Shown here: in pieces, positions 19,873-26,602 of the stretch
How the letters are laid out: each line of letters starts with the position of its first letter
Position numbering within the stretch: position 1 is the first letter of the stretch
Source: Actinomyces sp. HPA0247
GTDB taxonomy: Bacteria > Actinomycetota > Actinomycetes > Actinomycetales > Actinomycetaceae
Assembly (NCBI GenBank): GCA_000411415.1
Contig: KE150452.1
Location: 36,069-100,068 of the forward strand
DNA: 64,000 nucleotides
Reading direction: 5' to 3'
Translations under genes and position numbers: made by a program
The notes under the pieces: generated by a model
Databases searched by the model: none
Told to the model about the DNA's origin: nothing
What the model saw: the letters and a program-made list of their open reading frames with translations, nothing else

Positions 19873-20922
19873 ATGTCTATTCAGCGTAATACTTCGATAT
19901 CGGCCACCGATTTTGGCCAGCCCACCCGCCGAGGCCCGCTTGCCGAGGGCGACCGCGTTCAGGTTCGTGATCCCAAGGGACGCTTCCACCAGGTAATCCT
20001 CGTCAGCGGTGGACGTTTCCAGTCCAACCGCGGTGGCTTTGACCATAACGACGTTATTGGCCGCCCCGACGGTCAGGTGATGATCACGGAAGAAGGCCGC
20101 CAGTTCCAGATTCTGCGCCCTCTCCAGGTCGACTACGTGATGTCCATGCCCCGTGGTGCTGCCGTCGTCTATCCGAAGGATGCCGGCGTGATCACCCACA
20201 TGGGCGACATTTTCCCGGGCGCGACGGTTATCGAGGCTGGTGCGGGTTCTGGTGCCCTGTCGATGGCTCTCCTTGACGCAGTCGGCCCGCAGGGACGCCT
20301 CATCTCCGTGGAGCGTCGCCAGGACTTCGCCGACATTGCAGCCGCCAACGTCGACCTCTGGTTCGGTCGACGCCACCCGGCATGGGATCTGCGTGTTGGA
20401 GACGTCGATGAGGTCCTCTGGTCGGCTGAAGCTGGCAGCGTTGACCGCATCGTGCTCGATATGTTGGCGCCCTGGGAGAACATTGAGGCCATCACGCACG
20501 CCCTTATCCCGGGCGGCGTCCTCGTGTGCTACGTTGCGACCGTGACGCAGATGTCCCGTCTCGTCGAGGATCTGCGTGCATCCGAGCGTTTCACCGATCC
20601 GATCGCGTGGGAGGACATGCGCCGCGAGTGGCACCTTGATGGCCTTGCCGTGCGCCCGGAACACCGCATGGTCGCCCACACCGGGTTCCTTGTCATCGCC
20701 CGCCTTCTCGCCCCCGGCATCACCCCGCAAGAACGTTCGACGCGGCCCGCAAAGGCTGCTGAAGGCCAGGGCGGCGCGTGGGACGACGAGGAGGACTGGA
20801 GCCTCGAGAAAGTCGGCCAGCGCGTGAACTCTGAGAAAAAGGTGCGCAAGGTCCGCCGCGACGTCGTCGCACAGGCGGACACGTGGGCGTCAGAAGGACG
20901 CGAGGCGGCTAGCGATGAGTGA
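19873..20922 (+). CDS. trmI: tRNA (adenine(58)-N1)-methyltransferase
   Basis: 349 residues. A Rossmann methyltransferase domain carries the SAM motif VIEAGAGSGALSMALL and later DMLAPWENIEAI, as in M. tuberculosis TrmI, which methylates A58 in the tRNA T-loop. An N-terminal small domain precedes it and a charged, low-complexity extension follows after about residue 285. ATG 19873 is fixed by the leaderless promoter; the much longer open frame upstream is antisense to the nuclease gene. The 3' end overlaps mpa by 8 nt. In many actinobacteria trmI stands next to the proteasome ATPase, as here. Confidence 0.93.
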   Translation: MSIQRNTSISATDFGQPTRRGPLAEGDRVQVRDPKGRFHQVILVSGGRFQSNRGGFDHNDVIGRPDGQVMITEEGRQFQILRPLQVDYVMSMPRGAAVVYPKDAGVITHMGDIFPGATVIEAGAGSGALSMALLDAVGPQGRLISVERRQDFADIAAANVDLWFGRRHPAWDLRVGDVDEVLWSAEAGSVDRIVLDMLAPWENIEAITHALIPGGVLVCYVATVTQMSRLVEDLRASERFTDPIAWEDMRREWHLDGLAVRPEHRMVAHTGFLVIARLLAPGITPQERSTRPAKAAEGQGGAWDDEEDWSLEKVGQRVNSEKKVRKVRRDVVAQADTWASEGREAASDE

Positions 20923-22459
20923 GGCTACTGATCGCGAGTCTTTGCAGCGACGTCTGATCTCCCTGGAAGAGAAGAACGGACGCCTGACGAGCGCGCTCAC
21001 AACAGCGCGCACCGAGCTAATCCGCCTGCAAGGGGAGCTGGCCGACGTATCGCGTCCCCCGCAGACGCTGGCGACTTTTGTGCGTGCTTTCCCATCGTCG
21101 CGTCAGATCGAGGTCGTGAGCGGTGGCAAGCGTATGCGTGTGGCGGTGTCGCCGAAGCTCGACGTGACGGATCTATCCTACGGACAGTGGGTGCGTCTCG
21201 ACGACACGTCGATCGCCGTCGCTGCCGATGACTTTCCCCGCAGTGGACAGGTTGTCTCCATCCTCGAATTGGTCGGCCAGGATCGTGTTCTCGTCGCCAC
21301 AGAGGGCGGCGCCGAAACTCTTCTTGAGCTTGCCGGCCCGCTGCGTCACGGCAACCTACGCCCCGGAGACTCCCTCGTCGTGGATGCACGTGCCGGGATC
21401 GCGTTTGAACGCATCGTGCGTGAGGATGTCGAGCAGCTGCTCACCCCCGAGGTTCCCGACGTCACGTACGAAGATATCGGTGGTCTCGACGATCAGATCG
21501 CGCAGGTGCGCGACTCGATCGAAATGCCTTTCAATCACCCCGAGCTCTATCGGCAGTTTGGGCTTCGTCCGCCCAAGGGCATTCTCCTGTACGGTCCTCC
21601 GGGATCTGGCAAGACCCTCATCGCGAAGGCAGTGGCCAACTCACTATCCAAGCGCGGAGGCGCCTCGACGTTCTTCCTGTCTATTAAGGGCCCCGAGCTT
21701 CTCAACAAGTTCGTCGGCGAAACCGAACGTCAGATTCGTGCGATTTTCGCTCGAGCGCGCACTCTCGCGGCCGGTGATACTCCCGTCGTCATCTTCTTCG
21801 ATGAGATGGAGGCGCTGTTCCGCACGCGTGGCACGGGCGTGTCCTCGGACGTTGAAACGATGATCGTACCGCAGCTTCTTGCGGAGATGGATGGCGTTGA
21901 GTCGCTTGATAACGTTGTGATTATCGGAGCCTCCAACCGTGCGGACATGATTGATCCCGCTGTTTTGCGCCCCGGCAGACTCGACGTGCGGATCCGCGTC
22001 GATCGTCCCGATCGCGCGGGAGCGCTCGATATCTTCTCGAAGTACCTGACCCCGCAGGTGCCCATCCATGCCTCCGAGATCGCACGCTTCGGCGGTATCG
22101 ACGAGGCCGTGGCTGGGATGAGCGAACGTGCCGTCGATGCCCTCTACGCCCGTAACGAGACAACCGCGCTCTTCCTCGCGACTCTTGTCAATGGCGATCA
22201 CAAGCGCATCTACCTCTCTGACCTCGTCTCCGGCGCTCTCATCGCAGGGATCGTCGAGCGTGCCAAGAAGTATGCGATCAAGGACGCATTGATGGGCGCG
22301 CCCTCCGGGCTGAGCATGGAGCACCTGCTGCGTGGTGTCCATGAAGAGATGAACGAGTCATTGGAGCTTGCCGCCACATCATCTCCGGAAGATTGGGCCC
22401 GCACGAGTGGCCTCGCTCCCGAAATCGTGAATGTGAAGCCGATTGGAACAGTGAAATGA
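20915..22459 (+). CDS. mpa: Pup-dependent AAA ATPase Mpa/ARC
   Basis: 514 residues. An N-terminal coiled coil (about 1-45) that in homologs captures Pup is followed by OB domains (about 60-160) and an AAA module with Walker A GPPGSGKT (about 226-233), Walker B VIFFDEMEALF and sensor GASNRADMIDPAVLRPGRLD. Homologs unfold pupylated proteins and feed them to the 20S proteasome through a C-terminal GQYL-type docking tail. Here the protein ends in IGTVK, so that docking motif is missing, in keeping with the absence of prcBA from the cluster. It may act as an unfoldase without a protease. The stop overlaps dop by ATGA. Confidence 0.95.
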   Translation: MSEATDRESLQRRLISLEEKNGRLTSALTTARTELIRLQGELADVSRPPQTLATFVRAFPSSRQIEVVSGGKRMRVAVSPKLDVTDLSYGQWVRLDDTSIAVAADDFPRSGQVVSILELVGQDRVLVATEGGAETLLELAGPLRHGNLRPGDSLVVDARAGIAFERIVREDVEQLLTPEVPDVTYEDIGGLDDQIAQVRDSIEMPFNHPELYRQFGLRPPKGILLYGPPGSGKTLIAKAVANSLSKRGGASTFFLSIKGPELLNKFVGETERQIRAIFARARTLAAGDTPVVIFFDEMEALFRTRGTGVSSDVETMIVPQLLAEMDGVESLDNVVIIGASNRADMIDPAVLRPGRLDVRIRVDRPDRAGALDIFSKYLTPQVPIHASEIARFGGIDEAVAGMSERAVDALYARNETTALFLATLVNGDHKRIYLSDLVSGALIAGIVERAKKYAIKDALMGAPSGLSMEHLLRGVHEEMNESLELAATSSPEDWARTSGLAPEIVNVKPIGTVK

Positions 22460-23976
22460 GCAGCGAACGCATTATCGGTACCGAAACCGAGTATGGCGTC
22501 TACCGTCCCGGCGACGCGTGGGCAAATCCGATTGCTCTGTCGACGAAGGTTGTGACGACCTACGGTGAGATCAGCCGCACGGGCACTCCCGCCCAGGGCG
22601 CAGGTGTTGTGCGGTGGGACTATACGGGTGAGGATCCCCTCAACGATCTGCGCGGCATGCGTATGTCGCGTGCGGCCGTTGATCCCTCGCTTCTCACTGA
22701 CGATCCGTACCACCTCGCACCATCGGGAGGCTCTGAGCGCGTTGCTCGTCCCACTGCTGAGGAGCTGGCGCTTCCGGCTGCCACTACCGCCGTCTTGACG
22801 AACGGTGCACGCCTGTACGTCGACCATGCTCACCCCGAGTACTCCGCCCCCGAGACGATCGGTGCACGCGATGCACTGCTGTGGGATCGCGCGGGCGAAG
22901 TGATCGCGCAGCGCGTGATGGCACGCCTGGAGCAACAGGGCGAGGAACCAATCGTCCTCGTCAAGAACAACACCGACGGTAAGGGCGCCGCCTACGGCAC
23001 CCACGAGAACTACCAGATGCCGCGTATTACCGACCTCGATGCGATCGTTCGCGGTCTCACGCCCTTTATGGTGACCCGTCCCGTCATCTGCGGCACCGGC
23101 CGCGTGGGACGCGGACAGAAGAGCGAAGTACCCGGTTTTCAGATGTCGCAGCGCGCGGACTTCGTCGAAAACGAGGTCGGCCTCGAGACGACCTTTAACC
23201 GTCCAATCGTTAATACGCGCGATGAGCCCCACGCGAACCCCGCGCAATTCCGCCGCCTCCACGTGATCGGCGGCGATGGCAACATGTTCGATGTGTCAGC
23301 CTTCCTCCGTTTTGGCACAACCTCCCTCGTCCTGTGGGCGATCGAGCAGGGCACTGATCTGCGCTGGGATTCGCTCGTCATGGACGATCCTGTCCAAGAG
23401 ACCTGGAACGTGTCCCACCACCCCGATCTCGACTACAAGGTTGGAACGGCTGGCGGCGCCTACACGGCAGCCGAACTTCAGCAGGTATACCTGGACCTCG
23501 TGCTGGATACCTTCGAGGAAACGGGAACGACGCCCACAGCCGCCGACCAGGAGATTCTCACCCTGTGGCAGTCGGTCCTCGATCGTATGCGCGCCGATCT
23601 TTTCTCCGTGGCCACCGAGGTCGAGTGGGTGGGTAAATACCAGCTCATCAAACGTCAGAAGGAACGCGCGAACCTCGACTGGAGCGATCCTCGTCTCGCT
23701 GCGATTGACCTGCAGTGGTCAGACCTGCGTCCCAGCCACGGCCTCGTCTATCGTCTGGCGAAGGCAGGCATGGTGACACGCCTTGTCACAGATGAGGAGG
23801 TCGAACGCGCTGCCGACGTCGCGCCAACCAACACGCGTGCCCACGTGCGAGGATGGGCAGTCGCCAACCGCGGCGATCTTGTAAAGGCCTCGTGGACTTC
23901 TCTTGTCTTTGACCCCGGTGAAGGGGACTTGGTCCGTTTCCCGATTGCAGATGCACGCGACACGTCCACCCGATAA
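22456..23976 (+). CDS. dop: Pup deamidase/depupylase Dop
   Basis: 506-residue carboxylate-amine-ligase-like enzyme. It converts the C-terminal Gln of Pup to Glu and can remove Pup from substrates. The N-terminal IIGTETEYGVY carries Mg/ATP-binding glutamates. The Dop-specific insertion lies around residues 55-110, followed by YVDHAHPEYSAPE and a nucleotide-binding region KNNTDGKGAAYGTHENY. Dop-type length and insertion separate it from pafA downstream. The pup gene in this cluster ends in Gln, so this deamidase step is required. Start ATG 22456 overlaps the mpa stop. Confidence 0.94.
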   Translation: MSSERIIGTETEYGVYRPGDAWANPIALSTKVVTTYGEISRTGTPAQGAGVVRWDYTGEDPLNDLRGMRMSRAAVDPSLLTDDPYHLAPSGGSERVARPTAEELALPAATTAVLTNGARLYVDHAHPEYSAPETIGARDALLWDRAGEVIAQRVMARLEQQGEEPIVLVKNNTDGKGAAYGTHENYQMPRITDLDAIVRGLTPFMVTRPVICGTGRVGRGQKSEVPGFQMSQRADFVENEVGLETTFNRPIVNTRDEPHANPAQFRRLHVIGGDGNMFDVSAFLRFGTTSLVLWAIEQGTDLRWDSLVMDDPVQETWNVSHHPDLDYKVGTAGGAYTAAELQQVYLDLVLDTFEETGTTPTAADQEILTLWQSVLDRMRADLFSVATEVEWVGKYQLIKRQKERANLDWSDPRLAAIDLQWSDLRPSHGLVYRLAKAGMVTRLVTDEEVERAADVAPTNTRAHVRGWAVANRGDLVKASWTSLVFDPGEGDLVRFPIADARDTSTR

Positions 23977-24001
23977 TTAACGAAAGAAAGAAGAACGAAC
24001 T

Positions 24002-24178
24002 ATGTCGAATCAGATTTTCGCAGGCGGTCCCACCCCCGAGGATGACGTGACCGAGGCCGCTGGCCAGATCCAGGCCCGTACTTCGTCGATCGACTCTCTC
24101 CTCGACGAAATCGACTCCGTTCTGGAAACAAACGCGGAAGCATTCGTTCAGGGCTTCGTCCAGAAGGGTGGCCAGTGA
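24002..24178 (+). CDS. pup: Prokaryotic ubiquitin-like protein Pup
   Basis: 58-residue small modifier, disordered and acidic. It has the Pup helix SIDSLLDEIDSVLETNAEAF and C terminus QKGGQ; the final Gln must be deamidated by Dop before PafA can join Pup to a substrate lysine. Too short for routine ORF thresholds, but it sits exactly between dop and pafA. ATG 24002 follows an A-rich, AAGAAAG-containing leader. In organisms with a proteasome, prcB and prcA usually come next; here pafA follows after one base. Confidence 0.97.
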   Translation: MSNQIFAGGPTPEDDVTEAAGQIQARTSSIDSLLDEIDSVLETNAEAFVQGFVQKGGQ

Positions 24179-24179
24179 G

Positions 24180-25565
24180 GTGAGGCGTCGAGTTTTCGGC
24201 ATCGAAACCGAGTACGGGCTCACCGCAGCATCGCCCAGCGGCGCCAAGCCGATGGACGCCGAGCACGCCGCACGCCAGCTGTTTGAGCCGCTCCTGCACC
24301 AGGGCCGTTCCTCGAATCTCTTCCTGCGCAATGGCGGCCGCCTGTACCTTGATGTCGGCGCGCACCCCGAGTATGCGACCGCCGAATGTGATCGGCTTGA
24401 GGATCTGCTCGAGCAGGATCGCGCGGGTTCTACCATGCTCGCAGACCTTGCAACGCAGGCTGACAGTGCTCTGTCCGAGCTCGGCACCGATCTGCGTCTG
24501 CATCTCTTCCGCAACAACCTAGACTCGCAGGGCAACTCTTACGGATGCCACGAAAACTACCTCTTGCACCGGCGACGCGACTTCCGCCAGGTCGCCGATG
24601 CGCTGGTCGCATTCTTCGTGACGCGTCAGATCCTGGTCGGAAACGGGTGGATCAACACGGGCGCGGCCACCCCGCGACTGCAGTTCTCCCAGCGTGCCGA
24701 TCAGATGTGGGATGCCGTCTCCTCCGCCACGACCCGTTCGCGCCCGATCATCAACACCCGTGACGAGGCGTTGGCTGATTCCGGTGCTTATCGCCGCATG
24801 CACGTGATCGTCGGCGACACGAACGTCGCAGAACCCACCACCGCCCTCAAGGTCGGTATGACCGAACTCCTGATCCATGCCATCGAGGACGGCCTCCAGA
24901 TCGAAGACCTGGCCCTCGCCGATCCGATGCGCGCTATTCGCGAGGTGAATGCCGACCTGAGCGGATCGGCAGCCATTGAGCTCGCAACCGGCAGGATGAC
25001 GAGCGCTGTCGCTATGCAGCGTGACATCCGTGAGCGTGTACTGTCCCGGATTCCGGTCTCCGAGCTGGACCCGATGCGCGCCTACATTGTCGATCTGTGG
25101 GGCAGGGGTCTCGATGCGATCGCCAGCGGAGACTGGAGTGGTATCGACACAGAGCTCGACATCGCAATTAAGCGCAAACTGCTGAGCTCCTACTGCGCAC
25201 GCAGCGGTGCCACGCTCGCAGATCCGCGTGTCGCGCGACTCGAACTGTCCTACTCCGAGATCACGGCGGATGGCCTACGCGACCGGATGGAGAGTGCAGG
25301 TCTCATGCGACGCCTGACAACCGCCGATGCCGTGCGTCGTGCTCAAACAATTGCGCCGGCGACGACGCGGGCGAGCCTGCGTGGACGTATTATTGCCGCC
25401 GCCGAGGATGCGCGAGCCGATTTGAGCGTCGACTGGGTGCACGTGCGCCTTGACGAATCCCAGACGATCCCGCTGTCCCTGCAGGACCCCCTCGCCACGG
25501 TCGATCCGCGCGTGGATGCTCTCATCGCGCAGATTGACGCCTCGTCTCCTACGATTCCCGCATGA
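24180..25565 (+). CDS. pafA: Pup-protein ligase PafA
   Basis: 461 residues. It joins the C-terminal glutamate of Pup to substrate lysines with ATP. Motifs: RRRVFGIETEYGL at the N terminus with catalytic/Mg glutamates, RLYLDVGAHPEYATAE, NNLDSQGNSYGCHENYL and SRPIINTRDEAL. It lacks the Dop insertion. GTG 24180, one base after the pup stop, gives the N terminus usual for PafA; GTG 24168, overlapping pup, is the alternative. It overlaps the FKBP-like gene by ATGA. Confidence 0.95.
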   Translation: MRRRVFGIETEYGLTAASPSGAKPMDAEHAARQLFEPLLHQGRSSNLFLRNGGRLYLDVGAHPEYATAECDRLEDLLEQDRAGSTMLADLATQADSALSELGTDLRLHLFRNNLDSQGNSYGCHENYLLHRRRDFRQVADALVAFFVTRQILVGNGWINTGAATPRLQFSQRADQMWDAVSSATTRSRPIINTRDEALADSGAYRRMHVIVGDTNVAEPTTALKVGMTELLIHAIEDGLQIEDLALADPMRAIREVNADLSGSAAIELATGRMTSAVAMQRDIRERVLSRIPVSELDPMRAYIVDLWGRGLDAIASGDWSGIDTELDIAIKRKLLSSYCARSGATLADPRVARLELSYSEITADGLRDRMESAGLMRRLTTADAVRRAQTIAPATTRASLRGRIIAAAEDARADLSVDWVHVRLDESQTIPLSLQDPLATVDPRVDALIAQIDASSPTIPA

Positions 25566-26602
25566 GCACCGAGCCGTCATCGCCCGATTCACCCTCCACG
25601 CACCGTGTGAAGGGCTCATCGCAGCGCGCCGCCGCGCGTGCTTCTCGGTCACAAGGTGCCTCGCGCGGTGGGCTGTTCCTCCGTATCGGCCTCACTCTCA
25701 CCCTGCTCATCGCGGGTGGTGGCCTCACGTGGTGGGCTTGCGTCCCCGCTCCGACCACGCAGACGACGCCAGGCGCCGACGCGACTGCCCAGTCAACGAC
25801 GCTTCCCTTGTTTGACCGCGTGACGGTCTCCGGACGAGTCGGCGCGACACCCACGATTGATATCAAGGCGCCGCTCGACGTTGATGGCTTCAAGGCTCGC
25901 GTCATCGAAGAAGGCACCGGTCGTGAGATTACGGAAGGTTCTCCCGTCCTCGTCTCAGTGACTGCCTTTGATGGGACGAGCGGGCGCATGCTCTCTGAGT
26001 CTGGCCGCCCGCAGATGAGCCTCGGGATCGTCGGCTCGGATCAGATCAGCTCGGACCTCGCCATGTTGGTCACCGGCAAGCATGAAGGGTCCCGTATCCT
26101 CGCGTTTCGTACTGTAGCCATGGGGGATGGCTCTCCCAACACCAGGGAAATTGACGTCGTCGACATCCTGCCGTCCATCGCCACAGGAACCTCGGTCGAT
26201 GCCACCGTCGGTCCGATGAGCGTCGAGATGAGCCCCGAGGGACCGCTTATCAGTCACATTGCGACGCTCCCTGGCGGAGTGACGACGCAGGTGCTCATCA
26301 AGGGTGACGGCGTTCAGGTTCACGAAGGTGATCGGGTTGTCGCCCAGTTCACCGTTCTCGGTTGGACTGACGGAGTCGTCCGCGTCAACACGTGGGAAAC
26401 AGGCGTGCCGGCCGTGGTGAATCTCAACACCGCGATGAAAGGCCTGACAAACGCGCTCGTCGATCAGAAGGTGGGCTCGCGCCTGGCGATCACAATTCCA
26501 CCGGACCTCGCTGCGGGTGATGACACGCTCTGCGTGGTCATCGATATCCTCGGTACCGAGCCCGGCACCTCGACAGCAGGGGATAGCGCACCTCAGTCCT
26601 GA
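25562..26602 (+). CDS. Membrane-anchored FKBP-like peptidyl-prolyl isomerase family protein
   Basis: 346 residues. A cytoplasmic Ser/Arg-rich tail of ~35 residues is followed by one transmembrane segment (LFLRIGLTLTLLIAGGGLTW, about 38-57), then two extracellular FKBP-like domains. The second has VHEGDRVVAQFTVLGW and LTNALVDQKVGSRLAITIPP, an FKBP pattern. A cysteine after the TM segment (WWACVP) does not form a convincing lipobox, so it looks like a signal anchor. An FKBP gene next to pafA is common in actinobacteria, but a role in pupylation is not established. Probably assists folding of exported proteins. Confidence 0.85.
   Translation: MSTEPSSPDSPSTHRVKGSSQRAAARASRSQGASRGGLFLRIGLTLTLLIAGGGLTWWACVPAPTTQTTPGADATAQSTTLPLFDRVTVSGRVGATPTIDIKAPLDVDGFKARVIEEGTGREITEGSPVLVSVTAFDGTSGRMLSESGRPQMSLGIVGSDQISSDLAMLVTGKHEGSRILAFRTVAMGDGSPNTREIDVVDILPSIATGTSVDATVGPMSVEMSPEGPLISHIATLPGGVTTQVLIKGDGVQVHEGDRVVAQFTVLGWTDGVVRVNTWETGVPAVVNLNTAMKGLTNALVDQKVGSRLAITIPPDLAAGDDTLCVVIDILGTEPGTSTAGDSAPQS

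Follow-up and report, generated by a model that had tools for sequence, protein, structure and literature searches.

Organization of the pupylation locus

We have analysed a stretch of 64,000 nt of DNA from Actinomyces sp. HPA0247 (the window), which carries on its forward strand, between positions 20915 and 25565, a set of pupylation genes whose order, as read from the sequence and its open reading frames, is mpa, dop, pup and pafA. Throughout, codes beginning with L designate loci and those beginning with G designate genomes. The first gene, mpa (also arc; 20915..22459), encodes a Pup-binding AAA ATPase of 514 residues with OB and AAA domains, which ends in VNVKPIGTVK and matches TIGR03689 with 688.9 bits (cut-off 504.75). 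It is followed by dop (22456..23976), for a Pup deamidase/depupylase of 506 residues (TIGR03688, 544.4 bits), by pup (24002..24178), for a protein of 58 residues with the C-terminus GFVQKGGQ (PF05639, 65.8 bits; TIGR03687, 73.0 bits), and by pafA (24180..25565), for the Pup ligase (TIGR03686, 564.4 bits). All four genes are above the cut-offs of their equivalog models (TIGR03689, TIGR03688, TIGR03687 and TIGR03686), in agreement with the gene set named in a preliminary description of this DNA. The same description presented the genes as contiguous and overlapping, which is correct for mpa and dop, the stop of the former lying over the start of the latter in an overlap of 4 bases, but not for dop and pup, which are 25 bases apart. 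It also reported that prcB-prcA, the gene pair of the 20S proteasome core, is missing between pup and pafA and that a single base separates these two; this is indeed what results from the GTG start of pafA at 24180, the site occupied by prcB-prcA in 20S-bearing relatives being here reduced to position 24179. An alternative in-frame GTG at 24168 would result in an overlap of 11 bases between pup and pafA, so that under either start there is no room for prcBA.

The enzymes encoded at the locus look intact when compared with solved structures. Residues 4-508 of Mpa align to the solved Mpa 7ljf, which is of the mycobacterial type, with retention of GPPGxGKT, FFDEM and KGPELLNKFVGE, which we take to be the Walker A motif, the Walker B motif and the pore loop. 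The best solved relative of Dop is 9cku (412.3 bits), in which the stretch LYVDHAHPEYSAPE is identical, and that of PafA is 4b0t (385.4 bits), with LYLDVG.HPEYATAECD retained; the catalytic residues are presumably located in these stretches. In structure entry 4bjr, related to 4b0t, a D of the PafA stretch is N. As Pup ends in QKGGQ, its deamidation by Dop is required, in line with the earlier statement that the C-terminal Gln of Pup goes along with a retained Dop step.

By PafA, the closest named relative is Schaalia odontolytica (L005, 90% identity), and we have compared the locus with a total of 80 named loci. Six of these, of the Actinomycetaceae type (L005-L010), have no prc genes and gaps below 30 bases, while 61 have a pup-pafA gap of at least 1496 bases with prcB and prcA on the locus and 13 have no pup on the locus. 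The four genes stay together in relatives and, as in the Pup-proteasome systems of mycobacteria and of 20S-bearing Actinomycetales, mpa, dop, pup and pafA share one neighbourhood; unlike in those systems, where prcB-prcA lie between pup and pafA in 61/61 named loci with both genes outside L005-L010, no such pair is present here.

Search for the 20S core, Bpa and Cpa

The genome to which the window belongs is 2.43 Mb in size, lies in 3 contigs and was scored as 100% complete. It contains no match to PF00227, a profile for 20S or HslV subunits, at an expectation value (E) of up to 10. The genome-wide search for prcA and prcB, in which a hit would have refuted the earlier claim of a missing 20S core, thus yielded nothing. 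The absence is not specific to the strain, as none of 200 sampled Actinomycetaceae genomes, single-contig genomes included, matches the profile at E≤0.001 (0/36 genera): lack of 20S characterizes the family as sampled. A set of 20 chosen Actinomycetaceae genomes likewise gave no PF00227 match above cut-off, with sub-threshold matches in five of them (best E 0.009). That the search works on relatives is clear from the order, in which 92 of 149 genomes match the profile; in a control search, matches were obtained in 11/14 control genomes, ten of them above cut-off, and none in the C. glutamicum control.

Bpa, a partner of 20S, was also searched for, and the genome has no match to PF10759 at E≤10. 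In the order survey 73/73 Bpa-bearing genomes have 20S, in agreement with PMC4254994, but 19 of the 92 20S-bearing genomes are without a Bpa match, which indicates that the description of Bpa as conserved in all proteasome-harbouring actinobacteria (PMC4254994) is worded too strongly. Regarding the Cdc48-like Cpa described in PMC6017811, the Cdc48 model TIGR01243 yielded nothing above cut-off in the window's genome, in which eight partial AAA matches are present.

The C-terminal end of Mpa

The Mpa of the window ends in IGTVK and not in a GQYL-like tail, as had been pointed out in the preliminary description. The end KPIGTVK is common to this protein and to those of Schaalia odontolytica (L005), G154 and G204, and thus a local sequencing error, by which the tail would have been lost from the 3' end of mpa, has a negligible probability and is ruled out as a candidate, the overlap of the mpa stop with the dop start pointing the same way. 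Two members of the genus, G336 and G328, end in IGARE and REGER, also without a YL end.

The relation between this tail and 20S was analysed in the order survey of 149 genomes, 138 of which have an Mpa above cut-off, one Mpa end being taken per genome; in some of them (G137, G098 and several 20S-bearing ones) mpa is on a different contig from pup or prc, G098 is only 90% complete, which makes the absence of 20S there unsure, and the end for G030 was taken from a partial copy, a full one being present. GxYL ends are found in 73/92 20S-bearing genomes versus 0/46 of the 20S-less ones. The resulting association is strong (Fisher p ~1e-21), but because the genomes are related the raw value is too good. 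An Mpa tree, which is unsure owing to long branches and does not hold the family as one group, comprises as few as six changes of 20S state and four of tail state, and an independent-pair sign test gives a non-significant median p of 0.25. The 19 20S-bearing genomes without GxYL are all those of family f6 (10/10), eight 20S-bearing ones of family f20, and G062.

Exceptions are also found on the 20S-less side, as 17 Actinomycetaceae keep an Mpa ending in GYL (11: L224-L229, L236, L238, L239, L250 and L252) or DYL (six: L234, L240, L242, L243, L245 and L293), with 20S above cut-off in none of them (0/17). At least one Mpa end was taken in 64 of the 200 family genomes and 30 loci are the best-scoring ones, and for this reason the YL share of 17/64 is not a random estimate. 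These proteins nevertheless constitute exceptions to the rule put forward in PMC3511204, that the ATPases of organisms without proteasome genes lack the C-terminal motif. In an Mpa tree of 74 rows, which leaves out 12 of the 30 top loci as duplicates or near-duplicates and whose branch support comes from the Shimodaira-Hasegawa-like approximate likelihood ratio test (SH-aLRT) only, some forks being open, 12 of 13 YL rows branch closest to the outgroup; changed ends (GEFL, EDVL, SLI and GLI) are found elsewhere, the sole GEFL end being scored with the YL ends in the count of changes, and no YL end is left in Schaalia. Taken as independent proof that pupylation is not proteasomal, which is how the tail had initially been put forward, the missing motif is weakened by the exceptions in the order, by YL ends without 20S and by a non-significant sign test. 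Clearly, tail loss is a poor witness of the absence of a proteasome.

Neighbouring genes and relatives with unusual gene sets

Upstream of the pupylation genes, the start of mpa overlaps by 8 bases the end part of a gene for a GCD14-type tRNA methyltransferase (20134..20922, forward strand; PF08704, 74.6 bits over the scanned stretch 20134-20919). Downstream, pafA is adjoined by a gene for an FKBP-type peptidyl-prolyl isomerase (25562..26602, forward strand; PF00254, 27.7 bits), and FKBP genes near pup are described for some actinobacteria in PMC2588565.

Among the matches listed, at least 28 of the 200 Actinomycetaceae genomes have two Mpa homologues above cut-off. G150, G174, G244 and G304 have two loci each with mpa, dop, pup and pafA, and the second locus of G200 has mpa, pup and pafA with no dop match. 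The paired loci L282/L283, L284/L285, L286/L287, L289/L290 and L291/L292 carry divergent Pup, PafA and Mpa and belong to 20S-less Actinomycetaceae. Duplicated pupylation systems are described in PMC3511204 for Leptospirillum ferrooxidans and, in part, for Saccharopolyspora and Salinispora.

In the order, family f6 has kept 20S (10/10 sampled genomes) together with a Bpa ending in GNYL (10/10; L254-L263), its Mpa ending in SDLV, SDLL, PDLL, SSLI or MSMF (L203, L205-L211, L213 and L214); this suggests that in f6 pupylation is uncoupled from 20S, which may be served by Bpa alone. The eight 20S-bearing genomes of f20 have neither an Mpa with GxYL nor a Bpa match (L204, L212 and L215-L220; completeness 89-96%), and so have no known tail-bearing 20S partner left. 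As a precedent, PMC4254994 describes Propionibacterium acnes as having a 20S but neither an ARC nor a Bpa. Finally, G062 (L221) retains prcBA, has an Mpa without the tail and no Bpa match, groups with 20S-less relatives, and perhaps represents an intermediate stage of 20S loss.

A probable Pup cycle without a proteasome

With enzymes that appear intact and no 20S to receive their products, the locus is best read as supporting a Pup cycle which is not proteasomal. We estimate at roughly 85% the probability that this is, in a Schaalia-type member of Actinomycetaceae, a complete pupylation operon whose cycle remodels or regulates proteins. Judging from the proteins encoded, Dop would deamidate the GGQ end of Pup to GGE, PafA would join the activated Pup to lysines of target proteins, and Mpa would grip the Pup of tagged proteins and unfold them or take complexes apart. 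In the absence of a 20S receiver the product would be an unfolded or disassembled protein, and by removing Pup, and so recovering it, Dop would turn the pathway into a remodelling or regulatory cycle. That pupylation is not proteasomal here, as claimed from the outset, is shown by gene content (no 20S and no Bpa match). What we infer is the function that stands in for degradation and the targets that count, and likewise that the encoded enzymes are active, that Mpa acts as an unfoldase on tagged proteins and that 20S was lost in an ancestor. Retention of the pathway is broad: Mpa is above cut-off in 187/200 Actinomycetaceae genomes and Pup was found in 11/11 members of the family in the order sample.

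Some observations weigh against this reading. The remaining 13 of the 200 family genomes are without Mpa above cut-off, and so the pathway is not retained everywhere in Actinomycetaceae. Ferritin, the target in C. glutamicum, has no plain counterpart in the genome, whose single ferritin-fold match (L223:1453-1923) fits best the Dps models, below their cut-offs; ferritin was thus set aside as the obvious target and its role in C. glutamicum cannot simply be assumed here. Also, the genome has two adjacent ClpP genes, which makes breakdown by another protease conceivable. Mpa might indeed hand pupylated proteins to a chambered protease such as ClpP, the tag remaining degradative, and the 17 20S-less relatives that keep a GYL or DYL end look as if a docking partner had remained. 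However, the Mpa of the window has no such end, we know of no reported link between Mpa and ClpP, and we regard this route, which the two ClpP genes keep as a rival, as unlikely.

That the genes are decaying and no longer functional is, in turn, quite improbable: the long branches of Mpa in the window and in some relatives, as well as the lost tail, are what would be expected from decay, but the four open frames score above equivalog cut-offs, the active-site stretches are kept and the gene set stays together in relatives. The fact that the genome is in three contigs, not one, leaves some room for a 20S missed through an assembly gap or strong divergence, and this we consider very improbable in view of the completeness score, the lack of any match at the most permissive threshold, the 0/200 result in a family sample with single-contig genomes, and the missing Bpa. 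In fact, a hidden or divergent 20S was rejected on the searches of the own genome and of the 20 chosen ones.

The arrangement that we favour, a Pup cycle without a proteasome, has a parallel in Corynebacterium, as anticipated in the preliminary description and as found in print: in PMC3511204 corynebacteria are described with pup directly before pafA, an ATPase without the C-terminal motif and no prcBA, while in PMC8223512 and PMC12288473 these genes of C. glutamicum have a non-degradative use on ferritin, for which the mechanism given above is proposed. Pupylation without prcBA is stated in PMC6466877 for 'about half' of the sequenced actinobacterial organisms. The present locus resembles that of C. 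glutamicum in having ARC, Dop, Pup and PafA in the absence of prcBA, and those of corynebacteria in the placement of pup before pafA and in an Mpa/ARC without the docking motif. Where it differs is in the target, which is ferritin in C. glutamicum, whereas here only a Dps-like protein with the ferritin fold is available. The difference from the Pup-proteasome system lies in the lack of both 20S core alpha and beta subunits and of a GQYL-like Mpa tail. Corynebacterium belongs to another order, and the losses of 20S in this genus and in Actinomycetaceae were therefore probably separate. A more specific scenario, which we find rather unlikely, is that 20S was lost once at the base of Actinomycetaceae, that early branches (genera g82, g70, g74 and g8) keep GYL or DYL ends because these dock another partner, and that Schaalia represents a later state in which this second use has disappeared as well and Mpa acts alone; if true, the tagging system would have changed its role twice with no proteasome present.

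The use of pupylation on ferritin, the best described for proteasome-free systems, is thus not to be assumed in this organism. The finding of YL ends without 20S, and of 20S without GxYL, shows that there is no strict link between the Mpa tail and 20S, and caution is called for when proteasomal degradation is predicted from the tail. In the open-access literature searched we found no account of pupylation in Actinomycetaceae, which proves little. The arrangement itself is already known from reviews, and to it the locus adds a member from this family: with 20S in none of 200 genomes, proteasome-free pupylation is extended from Corynebacterium to Actinomycetaceae.

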